The position numbers and the translations under genes are program-made. The notes beneath the pieces were generated by a model. It did not search any database. It was not told the DNA's origin and saw only the letters and a program-made list of their open reading frames with translations. Positions 10,149 to 17,076 of a stretch of DNA of 64,000 nt are shown here, one piece after another (position 1 is the stretch's first letter; each line of letters starts with the position of its first letter). The stretch lies in assembly GCF_000010985.1 (NCBI RefSeq), contig NC_013939.1, positions 1,455,501 to 1,519,500 on the forward strand. The letters run 5' to 3'. The DNA comes from Deferribacter desulfuricans SSM1 (GTDB taxonomy: Bacteria; Chrysiogenota; Deferribacteres; Deferribacterales; Deferribacteraceae).

Positions 10149-10197
10149 AATATTTCTATCAATATAGAAATATTAATACTCTTTTATTTTTTGTCAA
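10149..10197 (-). promoter_or_regulatory. Promoter and palindromic operator of the RND operon
   Basis: On the minus strand TTGACA (10192-10197) and TAATAT (10170-10175) are 16 bases apart. A perfect 11-bp inverted repeat, AATATTTCTAT-CAAT-ATAGAAATATT (10149-10174), covers the -10 box and predicted start. This is where a repressor would bind. Which repressor uses it is unknown; the divergent ArsR is a candidate. Confidence 0.6.
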
Positions 10198-10213: not shown

Positions 10214-10241
10214 TTGACATATCGTGATTTATCGATATATT
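10214..10241 (+). promoter_or_regulatory. Promoter of the ars operon with internal palindrome
   Basis: TTGACA (10214-10219) and TATATT (10236-10241) are 16 bases apart, and the arsR ATG follows only 7 bases later with no ribosome site. The spacer holds ATATCG-N8-CGATAT (10219-10238), a likely ArsR operator that would block RNA polymerase when occupied. Confidence 0.7.
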
Positions 10242-10248
10242 CCACTTT

Positions 10249-10947
10249 ATGATTGAAGAATTTCTAAAAGCTATTTCTGATAAAACAAGACTTAGAATTT
10301 TAAATTTAATCAATTTTGCAAATGAAATATGTGTGTGCGATTTAGAAAACACACTTAAGCTAAAACAATCAACATTATCAACTCATTTATCAAAATTAAA
10401 TAAAACAAACATAATAAATTATCGAAAGAAAGGGAAATGGTCCTATTATAGAATAAACAATGAACTTGATAAAAATTATCAAAAATTACTTAAAAATATA
10501 ATTAATGTTTTCAAAAAATCAGAAACTGCAAAATCAGACATAAAAAATTACAAATCCAACAAAAACAGTTGCTCTATCAGTTATAAGATTTTAATTGTTG
10601 ATGACAAAAATGATCTTTACAGTCAAATTTTAGAAAAAGAACTGTCCAAAAAAGAAAACTTTAATATTGTCAGTGCAGGAATAAATCCTGCTGATAAAGT
10701 TTCACCCTTATTAAAAAAATTATATCCTGACGATTTCAAAAATTTTAGTTTCTTTACCAAGAGTATTAATAACTTCTTAGACTACGAGTTTGATATTATT
10801 TTTTATTTAATATCAGACAAGAAACAAAATCTACCTGACTTAAAAGCGAAAAAGCTAATAGAAATCACCATCAAAGAAAATGAACAAAAATTACCAATAA
10901 ACGATCTAAAAAAGCTATTACTAAAAAAATGTGAGAGGTATCTATGA
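10249..10947 (+). CDS. arsR: ArsR repressor fused to a degenerate ArsC-like domain
   Basis: Residues 1-90 are an ArsR/SmtB winged-helix repressor with the arsenite-binding ICVCDL motif (C28, C30). Residues from about 111 align to the arsenate reductase encoded next door: KILIVDD against KLLFLCT, then SQ...E and VSAGI against YSAGI. The catalytic loop is lost. The nucleophile Cys aligns to D118 and the loop Arg to Y124, and both resolving Cys are replaced by Ile and Leu. It is therefore a 232-residue fusion of a working-looking sensor and a dead reductase fold. The transcript looks leaderless. It overlaps arsC by 4 bases. Confidence 0.85.
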
Positions 10948-11360
10948 AGAAAAAATTACTATTTTTATGCACAGGTAATTCCTGCAGAAGCCAGATGGCA
11001 GAAGGCTATGGTAAAATCTTTTTAGGGGATAAATACGAAGTCTATTCAGCAGGAATAGAAAAACATGGCCTAAACCCAAATATGGTTAAAGTTATGAAAG
11101 AAGACGGTGTTGATGTAAGTAATCAATATTCAAAGACTTTAAATGATTTAGTAGATATAGACTTTGATGTGGTTGTAACAGTTTGCGGTGACGCTCATGA
11201 GACCTGCCCTATGTATCTTAAAAAAGCTAAAATAATTCACAAAGGGTTCAAAGATCCAGCGAAAGCGAAAGGAACAGAAGAAGAAATTTTGAAAGTATTT
11301 AGAGAAGTAAGAGATCAAATAAAAGATTATATAAAAAATGAGTTAATAAATTTGATTTAA
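10944..11360 (+). CDS. arsC: Thioredoxin-coupled arsenate reductase
   Basis: This 138-residue protein of the low-molecular-weight phosphatase fold reduces cytoplasmic arsenate to arsenite. The P-loop CTGNSCRS gives nucleophile C9 and loop Cys C14. C81 and C88 in [10 protein letters not shown] complete the redox relay typical of the Bacillus/Staphylococcus thioredoxin-linked type. It sits between arsR and the arsenite exporter, overlapping the former by 4 bases, so the product can be pumped out at once. Confidence 0.93.
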
Positions 11361-11370
11361 GGAGATTGTA

Positions 11371-12411
11371 ATGGAATCAATAAGCAAAAAATTATCATTT
11401 TTAGACAGATATTTAACTCTATGGATTTTTTTAGCAATGATAGCTGGTGTTGCTATCGGTTATTTTGTGCCACAAAGTGTTCAAGTAATTAATAAGTTTC
11501 AGATTGGTACAACAAATATATTAATTGCAATCGGTCTTATTCTTATGATGTACCCCCCATTTGCAAAAGTTAGATATGAAGAGCTACCCGATGTATTTAA
11601 AAATGTAAAAATCTTGACAATATCACTATTGCAAAACTGGATTATCGGTCCTTTTCTGATGTTTTTTATCGCAATCATCTTTTTGAGAAATTATCCAGAG
11701 TATATGGTTGGTCTTATAATGATTGGATTGGCAAGATGTATTGCAATGGTTATCGTTTGGAATGAGCTTGCAAAAGGTGATACAGAATACGCTGCTGGTC
11801 TTGTTGCATTTAACTCTATTTTTCAAGTTTTATTTTACTCGATTTATGCATGGTTTTTTATAACAGTTTTACCTAAATATTTTGGTCTCAGTGGTGCGGT
11901 AGTTCAGGTAACAATATCACAAATAGCAAAAAGTGTGTTCATTTATCTGGGAATACCTTTTATTGCAGGAGCACTCACAAGATACATTGGAGTCAAAATT
12001 ATGGGTAAAGAAAGATATCATAAAGTTATCGTTCCTAAAATCAGCCCAATAACTCTTATCTCTTTATTATTCACTATCATTATCATGTTTAGTTTAAAAG
12101 GGAAATTAATTGTAAAACTACCAATGGACGTAGTTACTATAGCTTTACCACTTTTAGTTTACTTTACAGTAATGTTTTTTATCTCCTTTTATATAGGGAA
12201 AAAACTTGGTGCAGATTACAGTAAAACAACCACTTTAGCTTTTACAGCTGCAAGTAATAATTTTGAACTAGCAATTGCGGTAGCAGTTGCTGTCTTTGGT
12301 ATAAATTCTGGAGCTGCATTTGCTGCAGTAATTGGACCTTTAGTTGAAGTTCCTGTAATGATTGGCCTTGTAAATGTTGCTTTATACTTTCAAAGAAAAT
12401 ATTTTCAATAG
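11371..12411 (+). CDS. acr3: Arsenite efflux permease Acr3
   Basis: This 346-residue membrane protein has about ten helices. It carries the Acr3 signature [16 protein letters not shown] with the conserved C123, and a late helix with the expected acidic residue ([10 protein letters not shown]). It exports arsenite using the proton motive force. It follows arsC by 10 bases with an AAGGAG ribosome site and ends at a terminator shared with the convergent regulator gene. Confidence 0.93.
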
Positions 12412-12430
12412 GGTGTTTTGACACCCTATT
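12407..12430. terminator. Bidirectional terminator between acr3 and the NtrC-type gene
   Basis: AATAGGGTGT-TTTG-ACACCCTATT forms a 10-bp stem. It covers the 3' ends of both convergent genes. Confidence 0.8.
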
Positions 12431-13800
12431 TATATCTTTATTTCATATTTTTTCAGTTTTGCATTCAATGTTACTCTACTGATACCTAAAATTTCTGCTG
12501 TTTTACTTAAATTATAACCATTCATCTTTAATGCTCTTTTTATCAATCTTGCTTCGATCTCTTCCACACTTTTTACAAGCAAATTATCCTTATATTTATT
12601 GAAAAAATACTCCGTAACATAAACGTTATTAGATTTAATCTTATCAATTTTTATATCTTCAGGTTTTATTAAATTATCTTTTGTAATCAACACAGCTTTT
12701 CTAATAACATTCTCTAACTCTCTCACATTTCCTGGCCAATCGTATTCTAATAAAATATTAAAAACTTCATCTTCTATACAGCAAATACTTTTATTAAGCT
12801 CTTTTGAATATTTTATAGTAAAATAAACAGCAAGATCTTTAATATCCTCTTTCCTCTCTCTCAATGGAGGTAAATTAATGTTTACAACATTAAGACGATA
12901 ATAAAGGTCTTCTCTAAACAACCCCTTTTGTATTAATTCCTTTAAATCTTTATTTGTAGCTGCCACTATTCTAACATTAACTTTTTTGAGTTTGTTGCTA
13001 CCCAACCTTTCAATGGCACCATCTTGCAAGACTCTAAGAAGCTTAGCCTGAAGATCTAAAGGCATATCACCAATTTCATCAAGAAATAATGTCCCACCAT
13101 CAGCAATCTCAAATTTACCCATTTTGCTTTTATCAGCACCAGTAAAAGCACCCTTTTCATAACCAAACAACTCACTTTCCAACAACTCTTCAGGTATAGC
13201 AGCACAATTTATCGGTATAAAAGGTTTTTCTTTTCTGTCACTGTATTTATGAATAATTTTAACAATTAATTCTTTACCTGTGCCACTTTCACCTGTAACT
13301 AAAACCGGGTAATTTGTTTCAGCGACACCAGCCACCATAACCATAATATCCCTTATTGCTTTAGAAGACCCAATAAATATTTCATCACTAAAACTTTCAT
13401 AATCCAGCTTTAAAGCATTTTCAGGACAATATTCTTGATTATCAATTCTTGCTATTTTAGTTGCAATTTCAACAATATATTCTGGCTCAACAGGTTTAAC
13501 TATGTACTCCACTGCACCTAATTTTATACTATCCAATACAAGATTACTTGTGCCATAAGCAGTCATCATCACAACAGGCACATTTGCATCTATTTTTTTT
13601 ATAGCCTTTAAAACTTCTAACCCGTTTTCTTCTCCCAACTTATAGTCCAAAAAAATAATATTAAATTTATTCTTTTTAACTAAATCTAAAGCATCGCTAC
13701 CATTTAATGCTGTATGAACGTCAAAACTATCACTAAGTAACCTTTTTAAACCATAACACAATGCACTATCATCATCTATTATCAATACCCTAACCGACAT
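12430..13800 (-). CDS. Sigma-54-dependent NtrC-family response regulator
   Basis: This 456-residue protein has three parts: a receiver domain with phospho-acceptor D52 (FLDYKLG), an AAA+ domain with Walker A GESGTGKE and the sigma-54 contact loop GAFTGA, and a C-terminal Fis-type helix-turn-helix. It should activate sigma-54 promoters when phosphorylated by the kinase encoded just upstream. The only good sigma-54 promoter I found is at 4331-4348, so the molybdenum reductase operon is the likely target. The ATG at 13800 is preferred to a GTG 6 bases earlier because of the GAGG spacing. It overlaps the kinase gene by 11 bases. Confidence 0.93.
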
Positions 13801-15172
13801 AAGCACCTCGTAAGCTTATTCTAAAAACTGTATTATTATCTTGACTTTCTACCAATATTAACTCACCATCCATTGCAGTTACTATCATATCACAGATTGC
13901 TAGCCCTAAACCCGTCCCTTTTGCTTTAGTGGTAAAAAAAGGCATAAATATTTTATCTTTAGCTTCTTCATTTATACCAGTTCCATTATCTATAATATCA
14001 ATTATCACATCTTCGCTTATATTAAATATATTGATTTCAATTTTATCCGCACCAGCATCCAATGAATTGTTGATCAGGTTTAATAATACCTGCAATAACT
14101 TCTCTTTATCAACCTTTATTATTTTTAACTTACTATTGAAATTAAATTCTGCGCTAATATTTAGTCTGTCAAAATACCTTTTTAATTCATCTTTAACCTC
14201 ATTAACAATAATATCAGTCTTTTCAATATTTACAGGTTTAGTATATTCCAAAAATTCATTTATTCTTCTAACAAGACGGTTAGCTTCACTTTTAATAACA
14301 CTTAAATCTTCGTGGCAACTACTATTTGAAGCACTGCATTTCGATAATTGATAGACCATAAGATTTATTGTCATAATTGGATTTTTAAGCTCATGAGCAA
14401 GACCAGCAGCCATCATACCTATAGAAGCAAGTTTTTCACTCCTTCTTGCCTTACGTTCCTCTTCATAAAATCTATTCAAAGTATCGTACAATCTCTCAGA
14501 CATTTCATTTAATGTTTTTGAAAGTTTTTTTATCTCTATTGAAGCATATTCTGGAACTTCTGTTTTAAATGGTAGGTTATCATAGTTTAACTCATTTATT
14601 TGATTCACAAAATTATTCATAGGCCGTATTAATAATTTTGTCAAATAAAGCCCCAGTAAAACCCCAAATAAAATAATCAAAATATTAACAAACCCTAATT
14701 TAAATAAGTTTAGTTTCACCTCATCATTTATCGCTTTTTTGTCTATAATAAAAAGTATATAACCTATGGGATCATTCTTTATTTTCATAATTTTAAGTTT
14801 CATATAATCATTATCAACCCCTTCACTTAATAAATCCATATCCCTTTTTGCTTTAGCATCTGCCAAATAACTTTTATTTTTATCAAATAAATATATATTT
14901 TTTATATACCTCGTATTATCACTAATCTGTTTCAGCGTAATAAAAAGTGTATAAACATCCTCATAGAGTATTGACTCAATTAATCTTTGTTCATTTGTTT
15001 TATAATGAGACTCTATAACTTGCTTTATATTATCTTTTATAAAACTATTTAGATAAATAAAAAGGATTATCAGATTTATAACAACAGTGCCAAAACCTAA
15101 AATTCCAATTAATAATCCAACTCTGTGTTTAATTTTAGGAGGTAAAAATCTATAAAACAAACTACTCTTCAT
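13790..15172 (-). CDS. Membrane sensor histidine kinase
   Basis: This kinase of about 460 residues has two transmembrane helices (about 16-40 and 155-175) flanking a periplasmic loop, then a HAMP linker, a DHp domain with H-box AAGLAHELKNPI, and a CA ATPase domain (DNGTGI, GTGLGLAIC). It is placed between a periplasmic PhnD-like binding protein and an NtrC-type regulator. The likely logic is that the loaded binding protein touches the periplasmic loop and starts phosphotransfer. The ATG at 15172 overlaps the end of the binding-protein gene. Confidence 0.92.
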   Translation of the reverse strand: MKSSLFYRFLPPKIKHRVGLLIGILGFGTVVINLIILFIYLNSFIKDNIKQVIESHYKTNEQRLIESILYEDVYTLFITLKQISDNTRYIKNIYLFDKNKSYLADAKAKRDMDLLSEGVDNDYMKLKIMKIKNDPIGYILFIIDKKAINDEVKLNLFKLGFVNILIILFGVLLGLYLTKLLIRPMNNFVNQINELNYDNLPFKTEVPEYASIEIKKLSKTLNEMSERLYDTLNRFYEEERKARRSEKLASIGMMAAGLAHELKNPIMTINLMVYQLSKCSASNSSCHEDLSVIKSEANRLVRRINEFLEYTKPVNIEKTDIIVNEVKDELKRYFDRLNISAEFNFNSKLKIIKVDKEKLLQVLLNLINNSLDAGADKIEINIFNISEDVIIDIIDNGTGINEEAKDKIFMPFFTTKAKGTGLGLAICDMIVTAMDGELILVESQDNNTVFRISLRGAYVG

Positions 15173-16019
15173 AACCAAACTTACTTAAATAATCCTTCAT
15201 AATAACAACTTTTTTCAATAATTTATAATCTGGTAAAATAAATCTTTCTATCTTCAATTTTTTTAAAATACTTTTCCCTTTATCATCCTTATGCATATTT
15301 AAAAGAACTTTTCTAATTTTATCACGTAAATCCTTGCTCATATAAGTTGATGCTACAAAAGGTGGAGCAAGAAATTCATCAGACTTATGTATAATTTTTA
15401 TATTTTTTACCTTATCAGGCTCATTCTGTTCTATAAAATCATAAACCAAACTATCAACAGCTGCACCATCTATCAATCCTATATTCACCAAATAAATAGA
15501 CTTATCATGGCTATTAGTAAAAAAAATCTTTTTAAAAAACTTATCAGGTTTCACACCAACCTCTTTTAAAATTAAATAAGTTGGATAAATAAAACCACTA
15601 TTTGATAACCTATCAGTAAAAGCAAATACTTTACCTTTCAAATCTGAGATTGTTTCAATTTTAGTTTTTTTATTAACGATTATATATGATCTGTACGTAC
15701 TTTTACCATTTACAACAGGAACCCCTAAAATATCATACCTCTTATTGTCTAAATAAATTAGAGCACCTGTGCATATGGAGGCAAAATCCACTCTACCAGT
15801 TTCTATTAATTTATTGATTTCAGAATAGTTTCTCCTAAAAATTGGATTTATTTTCTTTCCCACTTTCTGCTCTATGTATTTACCAAAATCTTTATATAGG
15901 AAAAAAGTTTCATCAGGTGAAATCATTGATGCAATAGCAAAATTCAGCTCTGCTCTTACAGTATTACCTATTAACAATAAGTTAATTAAAAAAATTATAT
16001 TTATAATTTTTTTAGCCAT
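15162..16019 (-). CDS. PhnD-like periplasmic binding protein, putative ligand sensor
   Basis: This 285-residue protein has a signal peptide (residues 1-23, VRA before ELNF) and a phosphonate/phosphate-type binding fold with the usual [10 protein letters not shown] and [10 protein letters not shown] segments. No permease or ATPase is nearby; a two-component pair follows at once. This is the layout of AioX-AioS-AioR (arsenite oxidase control), and TtrS has a built-in domain of the same kind. The mature protein has a single Cys, C83, in [10 protein letters not shown] at the expected ligand pocket. The start is set by GGAG before ATG at 16019 and gives an 8-base overlap with the gene before. Confidence 0.82.
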
Positions 16020-17076
16020 TGTAATTCTCCGGAACATAATCACAGAAAGGCTCTTCTGCCATATAATCACCCGTAACCGCATATGCTCTTGCTCTACACC
16101 CACCGCACACACCTAAATATTTACAAACTCCACATTTCCCTTCATATGACTTAAAATCCCTAATATCTTGAAACAACTTTGAATTTTCCCAAATATCCTT
16201 AAATTTCTCTTTAAATACATTACCTGCACTTATAGGAAAATATGAACATGGATAAACATCCCCTTTTGCACTAATAAAGCATATAGATTGAGCAGCTATA
16301 CAACCTTTCCCTCCGCCAGTTGAAAATTTTAAACTTCTTCTCTGAGTATCAAGCCCCTCTTTTTTACTTCTTTCATGCCATATTCTGTAATATTGTGGTG
16401 CACAGGTAGGCCTTACCAAAATTTCATCCTCTTCTCTTTCCATCTCATAATGCCAATTTAAAATGTCTTCATAATCTTCCTTACTAACAAGCTCTTTCAT
16501 TATCTCCTCACCTCTACCTGTTGGCACAATGAGAAACATATACCAAGCTGTAGCACCAAGTTTTTTAGCTAATTTATAGGTGTTCTCTATATCATGCTGA
16601 TTCCTTTTAGTAAAAGATGAATTTATTATAAAAGGGATATCATGTTTATTAAAATATTCTGCAGCTCTCATAACTCCTTCAAAAGCTCCTGGCTGCCCCC
16701 TAAAATCATCATGAATCTCTTTTGTAGATCCATCAAGGCTCAAAGAAACAATTTTTATACCGCTATCCTTAATTTTCATACAAATTTCATCATTAACTAA
16801 AACCCCATTTGTAGCCATGCACATTCTAAACCCTTTTTCCGTGCCATATCTCGCAATATCAAAAACATCTTTTCTAAGCAAAGGCTCACCACCAGATAAA
16901 ACTATCACAGGTGTAGCAACTTCTTTTATCTCATCTAACAGTTTGAAGCATTTATCCAGCGTAAACAACCCTTCCGGTGAATGAATATCTGAAGAAGATC
17001 TGCAATGAACACAGTTTAGATTACATTTTTCAGTTATTTCCCACGCCATCCATTTTAATTCCCACTTTTTACTCAT
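16012..17076 (-). CDS. Radical SAM/SPASM protein, AhbC/AhbD/NirJ-like
   Basis: This 354-residue radical SAM enzyme has the CX3CX2C cluster motif at C18, C22 and C25. A SPASM-type C-terminal region ([18 protein letters not shown]...EEPFC) resembles the alternative heme and heme d1 enzymes AhbC, AhbD and NirJ. It may act in heme formation from siroheme; another modification role is possible. The ATG at 17076 with GGAG 6 nt upstream is chosen over earlier in-frame starts, giving an 8-base overlap with the TtcA-like gene. Confidence 0.75.

Follow-up and report, generated by a model that had tools for sequence, protein, structure and literature searches.

Organization of the ars locus and its promoter

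The window analyzed here is the whole stretch of 64,000 nucleotides taken from contig NC_013939.1 of Deferribacter desulfuricans SSM1, a deep-sea bacterium that grows at 40-70 °C and is reportedly arsenate-reducing (Takai 2003). Table 1 presents a three-gene ars operon in this window, where the first gene encodes an ArsR repressor fused to a second domain and is followed by arsC and acr3. The ATG of arsC lies on the stop codon of the fusion as an ATGA overlap. The stand-alone ArsC scores 181.1 bits against a TIGR02691 cut-off of 174.3, presents all of the catalytic Cys and Arg residues, and is the only protein of the D. desulfuricans genome matched by Pfam LMWPc.

Convergent with acr3 is a minus-strand sensor cluster (12430-16112) that appears by sequence to encode an NtrC-type response regulator, a histidine kinase and a phosphonate-type periplasmic binding protein. 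A second ArsR of the same genome (locus L002, 1465-1824; 119 residues with a CVC motif and a terminal Cys) is encoded divergently to a permease gene, which at a guess is ArsP-like.

Table 1 Features of the fusion locus (window coordinates; "." denotes a feature without strand)
Feature	Position	Strand	Detail
Sigma-70-like promoter	10214..10241	+	TTGACA-16-TATATT; 11/12 matches
Dyad, candidate ArsR operator	10219..10238	.	ATATCG-N8-CGATAT, between -35 and -10
Fusion ORF, ArsR + pseudo-ArsC	10249..10947	+	232 aa
ArsR winged-helix half, residues 1-108	10249..10572	+	HTH_5 1.6e-12; NCBIfam HTH_metalloreg 2.8e-24
Pseudo-ArsC domain, residues 111-232	10579..10944	+	LMW-PTP fold, without catalytic residues
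Dead P-loop, residues 118-125	10600..10623	+	DDKNDLYS (ArsC: CTGNSCRS)
arsC, thioredoxin-type arsenate reductase	10944..11360	+	TIGR02691 9.4e-54, above cut-off
acr3, arsenite efflux permease	11371..12411	+	TIGR00832 6e-140, above curated ACR3 cut-off

Inspection of the upstream region reveals that the -10 element ends 7 bases before the fusion ATG, a distance of 6-8 bases across four homologous loci (the window, L005 from a second Deferribacter, and L006 and L007 from a family designated g3). Because the -10 lies this near to the ATG, the repressor mRNA is probably leaderless. Sigma-70-like sites number three against 2.2 expected in shuffles. The operator dyad in the fusion's own promoter is conserved by sequence in the four aligned loci, where TATTGACATATC...GATAT precedes the start codon, with the dyad imperfect in some of L005, L006 and L007. 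It is plausible from this placement that the dyad is an ArsR operator sited to block RNA polymerase. A perfect palindrome with 11-bp arms, AATATTTCTAT-CAAT-ATAGAAATATT (10149-10174), lies at the promoter of an RND efflux operon that runs divergently from 10138 to 4642. This palindrome was looked for upstream of the homologous fusions and is absent there, and it is therefore probably the operator of another regulator.

The C-terminal domain adopts an ArsC fold

An earlier note on this DNA had described the protein as an ArsR with a CVC arsenite site, followed at residues 111-232 by a domain that aligns with the neighboring ArsC. The ArsR half bears this out, with scores of 47.5 bits for HTH_5 (cut-off 22) and 84.7 bits for NF033788 (cut-off 55). 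Sequence searches of the fusion against Pfam, NCBIfam and the PDB recover this half only, with no match for the C-terminal domain, and TIGR02691 (cut-off 174.3) returns no match for the fusion. For annotators this serves as a warning that such a dead domain escapes all three kinds of search. BLASTP of the fusion against the neighboring ArsC produces an alignment that is off register and was rejected, so that pairwise evidence alone would be weak.

An HMM built from ArsCs only gives the C-terminal domain 18.3 bits, a score exceeded by none of the 1935 reported shuffles (maximum 11.5), and a profile-profile comparison of the two dead Deferribacter domains against ArsCs only, made with separate sets and an ArsC set free of fused rows, yields a probability of 91% and an E-value of 1e-6. 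The profile of the dead domains alone also matches the P-loop-bearing fused domains of family g3 at E ~1e-14, and these in turn match Pfam LMWPc (two of four rows, best 2e-12) and TIGR02691 (1e-10), where the relative at L006 reaches 41.9 bits, under the cut-off of 174.3.

The AlphaFold2 model of the fusion has a pLDDT of 91.7 and was computed from an alignment that combined 24 ordinary ArsRs with a single homologous fusion and had no ArsC among its rows. Because the C-terminal domain alone gave a pLDDT of 49 in single-sequence AlphaFold2, the confident model leans on the one homologous fusion. The predicted order of secondary structure in the domain is b112-118, a124-133, b138-144, short helices, b180-189, b199-208 and a217-231. 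The best Foldseek match in the PDB is 8p6m, the arsenate reductase ArsC2 of Deinococcus indicus (probability 1.00, target TM 0.70), with pI258 ArsC lower in the list of matches, and the N-terminal half of the model matches CadC, SqrR, HlyU and SmtB. The ArsC-only HMM, the profile-profile comparison and the AlphaFold2/Foldseek result agree, such that profiles and model together confirm an ArsC/LMW-PTP fold for the domain and not an unrelated one.

The fused domain lacks the catalytic residues of ArsC

When mapped on the neighboring ArsC, the nucleophile C9 is replaced by D118, and C14 and R15 of the P-loop are replaced by L123 and Y124, respectively. The resolving C81 and C88 correspond to I188 and L195 in an ungapped reading; one alignment places a gap near these positions, and either way no Cys is found there. 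In Bacillus ArsC, C10, C82 and C89 are required and the P-loop is the oxyanion site (PMC6193951). The CX5R loop and resolving Cys pair needed for a reductase are thus absent from the fusion, and the two linked claims of the earlier note, that every catalytic residue is gone and that the dead domain adjoins a working-looking ArsC, both hold. Dead and live domains still have N121, S125, Q126, E129, S142-A143-G144 and D182 in common, and most of these belong to loop or core and not to the catalytic chemistry. The pseudo-ArsC shares its fold and the core N, S, Q, E and SAG with thioredoxin-coupled ArsCs of the pI258/Bacillus type (TIGR02691), whereas the nucleophile, P-loop Arg and redox Cys pair of those enzymes have no counterpart in it. 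The same fold occurs in a non-enzyme setting in the mitoribosome assembly structures 6sga and 6sgb, whose LMWPc protein we take to be a pseudophosphatase that has lost catalysis; unlike the pseudo-ArsC, it is not fused to a metalloregulator.

The ArsR half retains an arsenite-type CVC motif

The As(III) site of ArsR repressors comprises three Cys (PMC4287715). In the fusion, C28 and C30 form a CVC motif at residues 28-30 and, together with C108, are invariant in 11 of 11 aligned ArsRs, while the position of E. coli ArsR Cys37 is occupied by Glu33. Beyond the CVC motif, C108 is the sole Cys invariant across the fusions and is probably the third As(III) ligand. It corresponds to the terminal Cys in ordinary ArsRs of the same type, including the paralogue in the same genome, so that the reductase domain appears to have been added just behind a complete ArsR. 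Ordinary CVC ArsRs (HTH_5/NF033788), such as the L002 paralogue, carry the CVC motif and C-terminal Cys as the fusion does, but they stop at most ~14 residues past the terminal Cys, where the fusion continues with a 122-residue pseudo-ArsC that begins three residues past C108. Arsenite binding would be expected to shift this attachment point. An alternative candidate for the third ligand is C228, which lies near the end of the pseudo-ArsC, is the sole Cys of the domain and occurs in Deferribacter only.

Relatives display a graded loss of catalysis

The fusion is present in five of the 51 genomes of the phylum. The same fusion, with the same placement and promoter/operator, occurs in the second Deferribacter (G005) and in three genomes of family g3 (G006-G008), and in each of the five fusion genomes a complete ArsC gene follows immediately, overlapping the fusion. 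The second Deferribacter also has D118, L123 and Y124 and no resolving Cys. The homologues with the same losses that the earlier note had proposed to seek do therefore exist, and the domain, which that note allowed might be missing from all relatives, is present in every homologous fusion found. Two genomes of the genus Deferribacter were found in the collections searched, and the dead state rests on these two species. The g3 proteins keep the P-loop (CTSNSCRS or CTKNSCRS) and the first resolving Cys and have lost the second. Read from these sequences, the series shows catalysis being lost in steps while purifying selection preserved the fold. Because relatives are caught in half-way decay, the domain resembles an enzyme repurposed as a non-catalytic component of a switch.

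The g3 fusions (L006 1495-2208 and L007 1396-2109) are in their own right a possible single-turnover arsenate switch. They resemble the C89L mutant of pI258 ArsC, which has a structure, 1lk0, described as that of a disulfide intermediate.

These relatives bear on whether the domain could be a sensor of arsenate (or phosphate), one that would bind the oxyanion but not reduce it. The g3 proteins keep the P-loop Cys and Arg and miss the second resolving Cys only, such that arsenate binding or a trapped disulfide of the C10-C82 type, a short-lived intermediate in ArsC (PMC6193951), is conceivable in that family. In both Deferribacter, however, the loop Cys has become Asp and the Arg has become Tyr, which leaves an acidic loop without Arg as a poor site, and the ArsR half retains the arsenite-type CVC motif. 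Arsenate sensing by the window protein, as the earlier note had suggested, is disfavored because the Cys and Arg of the CX5R oxyanion loop are replaced, and we regard an oxyanion sensor as highly improbable.

Further searches delimit the distribution. A locus search with the fusion protein as a single query returned no related loci, and one with an alignment returned mostly ordinary ArsRs, plus one g3 fusion again. Plasmids searched with the window domain and phages searched with the L005 domain gave no match. A fusion profile run against ~1100 genomes of Pseudomonadota, Bacteroidota and Bacillota detected ordinary ArsRs or separate adjacent arsR-arsC genes only, at a threshold that lets divergent fusions such as the alphaproteobacterial ones go undetected, and with one screen judged by match length only.

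ArsR-ArsC fusions examined in Pseudomonadota retain the catalytic residues

Fusion of ArsR to ArsC is not itself new, and is reportedly also the subject of Chen et al. (2022). Fusions termed ArsRC have been described in Leptospirillum ferriphilum, Microbacterium and Sinorhizobium (PMC6205960, PMC4443643) and in clusters C4/C7 of Actinobacteria (PMC6514093). As in the window, each is a single polypeptide, encoded in an ars operon, that joins an ArsR to an ArsC of the thioredoxin/LMW-PTP type; the window fusion differs in having lost all catalytic residues and in having a complete ArsC encoded next door. Probing 398 Pseudomonadota genomes with an alphaproteobacterial fusion revealed 21 single-frame fusions with both halves, all 21 of which keep the P-loop and both Cys, although these are not independent cases because most look like one clade. 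The earlier view that an inactive fusion is unusual is well founded, given that none of the known fusions examined lacks a catalytic residue (21/21 complete). No other dead fusion was found in the searches made, where the screens could miss divergent fusions; it is the dead version that is new.

Two alphaproteobacterial plasmids carry fusions (L052 2977-3810 and L055 2971-3819) in operons that also encode ArsJ and its GAPDH. These fusions have a complete P-loop, both Cys and an ArsR half without CxC, and by sequence are candidates for true arsenate sensing. In a Pseudoalteromonas protein with CVC (L051 3130-3894), the halves are reversed, giving ArsC-ArsR.

Constraint on the domain and its origin

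Comparison of the two Deferribacter gives a pN of 0.33 and pS of 0.65 (dN 0.44, dS 1.5) for the C-terminal domain and a pN of 0.25 and pS of 0.75 for the HTH half, and third codon positions differ most in both halves. Across families, identity is 55% for the HTH half, 78% for the stand-alone ArsC and 26% for the C-terminal domain. Phylogenetically, the four fused domains group as a single clade (100/99), whose stem to Deferribacter measures 2.23 changes per site. These values, from two sequences with dS saturated or nearly so, are suggestive of a burst of change on the loss of catalysis, with constraint setting in anew afterwards. The pattern is that of a pseudoenzyme, where the fold is kept, the catalytic residues are lost in more than one species and constraint is detected, again from two sequences only.

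The same data address whether the domain is a passive relic, a once-active fusion made redundant beside arsC and now drifting, its frame held only by translational coupling. A complete, redundant ArsC next door, the stepwise loss, the ATGA overlap and the faster change of the C-terminal domain than of the HTH half or ArsC across families would all suit such a history. The Deferribacter domains are nonetheless 51-52% identical with the same D118, L123 and Y124, pN is half of pS, and the core residues are retained in a model with a compact fold. Moreover, a stop codon after C108 would end the decay, and none of the five genomes has one. We consider a relic quite unlikely, though coupling to arsC via the ATGA overlap could account in part for the retained reading frame.

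An origin of the domain by duplication of the neighboring arsC, as implied by the earlier note, is not supported, where the fused domains group apart from the neighboring ArsC in both trees. The first tree places them nearest to ArsCs of Bacteroidota/Ignavibacteria (95/84), a closeness that does not resolve in the second tree, from which the long Deferribacter branches are omitted.

A proposed role for the pseudo-ArsC

Our preferred reading, to which we assign a probability of roughly 0.55 from sequence and model, is that the fusion is an arsenite-responsive autorepressor in which the pseudo-ArsC serves as a non-catalytic structural/allosteric or docking module. The operon would be arsR*-arsC-acr3, with the pseudo-ArsC derived from a thioredoxin-type arsenate reductase. 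By analogy with ArsR biology, transcription would be blocked while the apo fusion occupies the dyad between -35 and -10; the stand-alone ArsC would then make As(III), and its coordination by C28, C30 and the linker C108 would free the DNA. The pseudo-ArsC would not reduce arsenate, would most likely not bind it, and would be kept for its fold. We infer that it either positions or stabilizes the linker and dimer during growth at 40-70 °C or presents a docking surface.

The main rival to a structural/allosteric module is docking on a partner, in which the pseudo-ArsC binds the stand-alone ArsC or thioredoxin such that newly made arsenite is passed on to the CVC/C108 site or the state of the reductase is transmitted to repression. 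The constant position of arsC, directly downstream and overlapping in the five genomes, is in keeping with such a partnership, as is the retention of the fold and of a fusion-typical FFxKxIxNF stretch (168-176) where catalysis is lost. Against this, the redox loop through which live ArsC contacts thioredoxin has neither Cys left in the fused domain, and the separation of the fused domain from the stand-alone ArsC in trees means that inherited self-association is not implied. Docking of this kind is unlikely in our estimation; on dimerization with ArsC and on coupling to the state of the reductase, both raised in the earlier note, the evidence is neutral.

A bolder sequence of events, which we offer as a very unlikely one, would lead from the fusion through a single-turnover or arsenate-binding stage, as in g3, to a Deferribacter pseudo-ArsC that docks on the catalytic ArsC or on thioredoxin and, by way of a Cys108 hinge, ties repression to what the reductase produces. 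If true, the lineage would have been caught while a resistance enzyme was becoming a regulatory subunit. Pseudoenzymes turned regulators are well known in eukaryotic signaling, and graded series with intermediates are, to our knowledge, rare. The finding is modest in scale and suited to direct tests. One small operon in one phylum presents a half-dead and a fully dead fused reductase, each beside an intact enzyme; what the non-catalytic part of such a fusion does, and whether these fusions serve catalysis, sensing or structure, is therefore directly testable.
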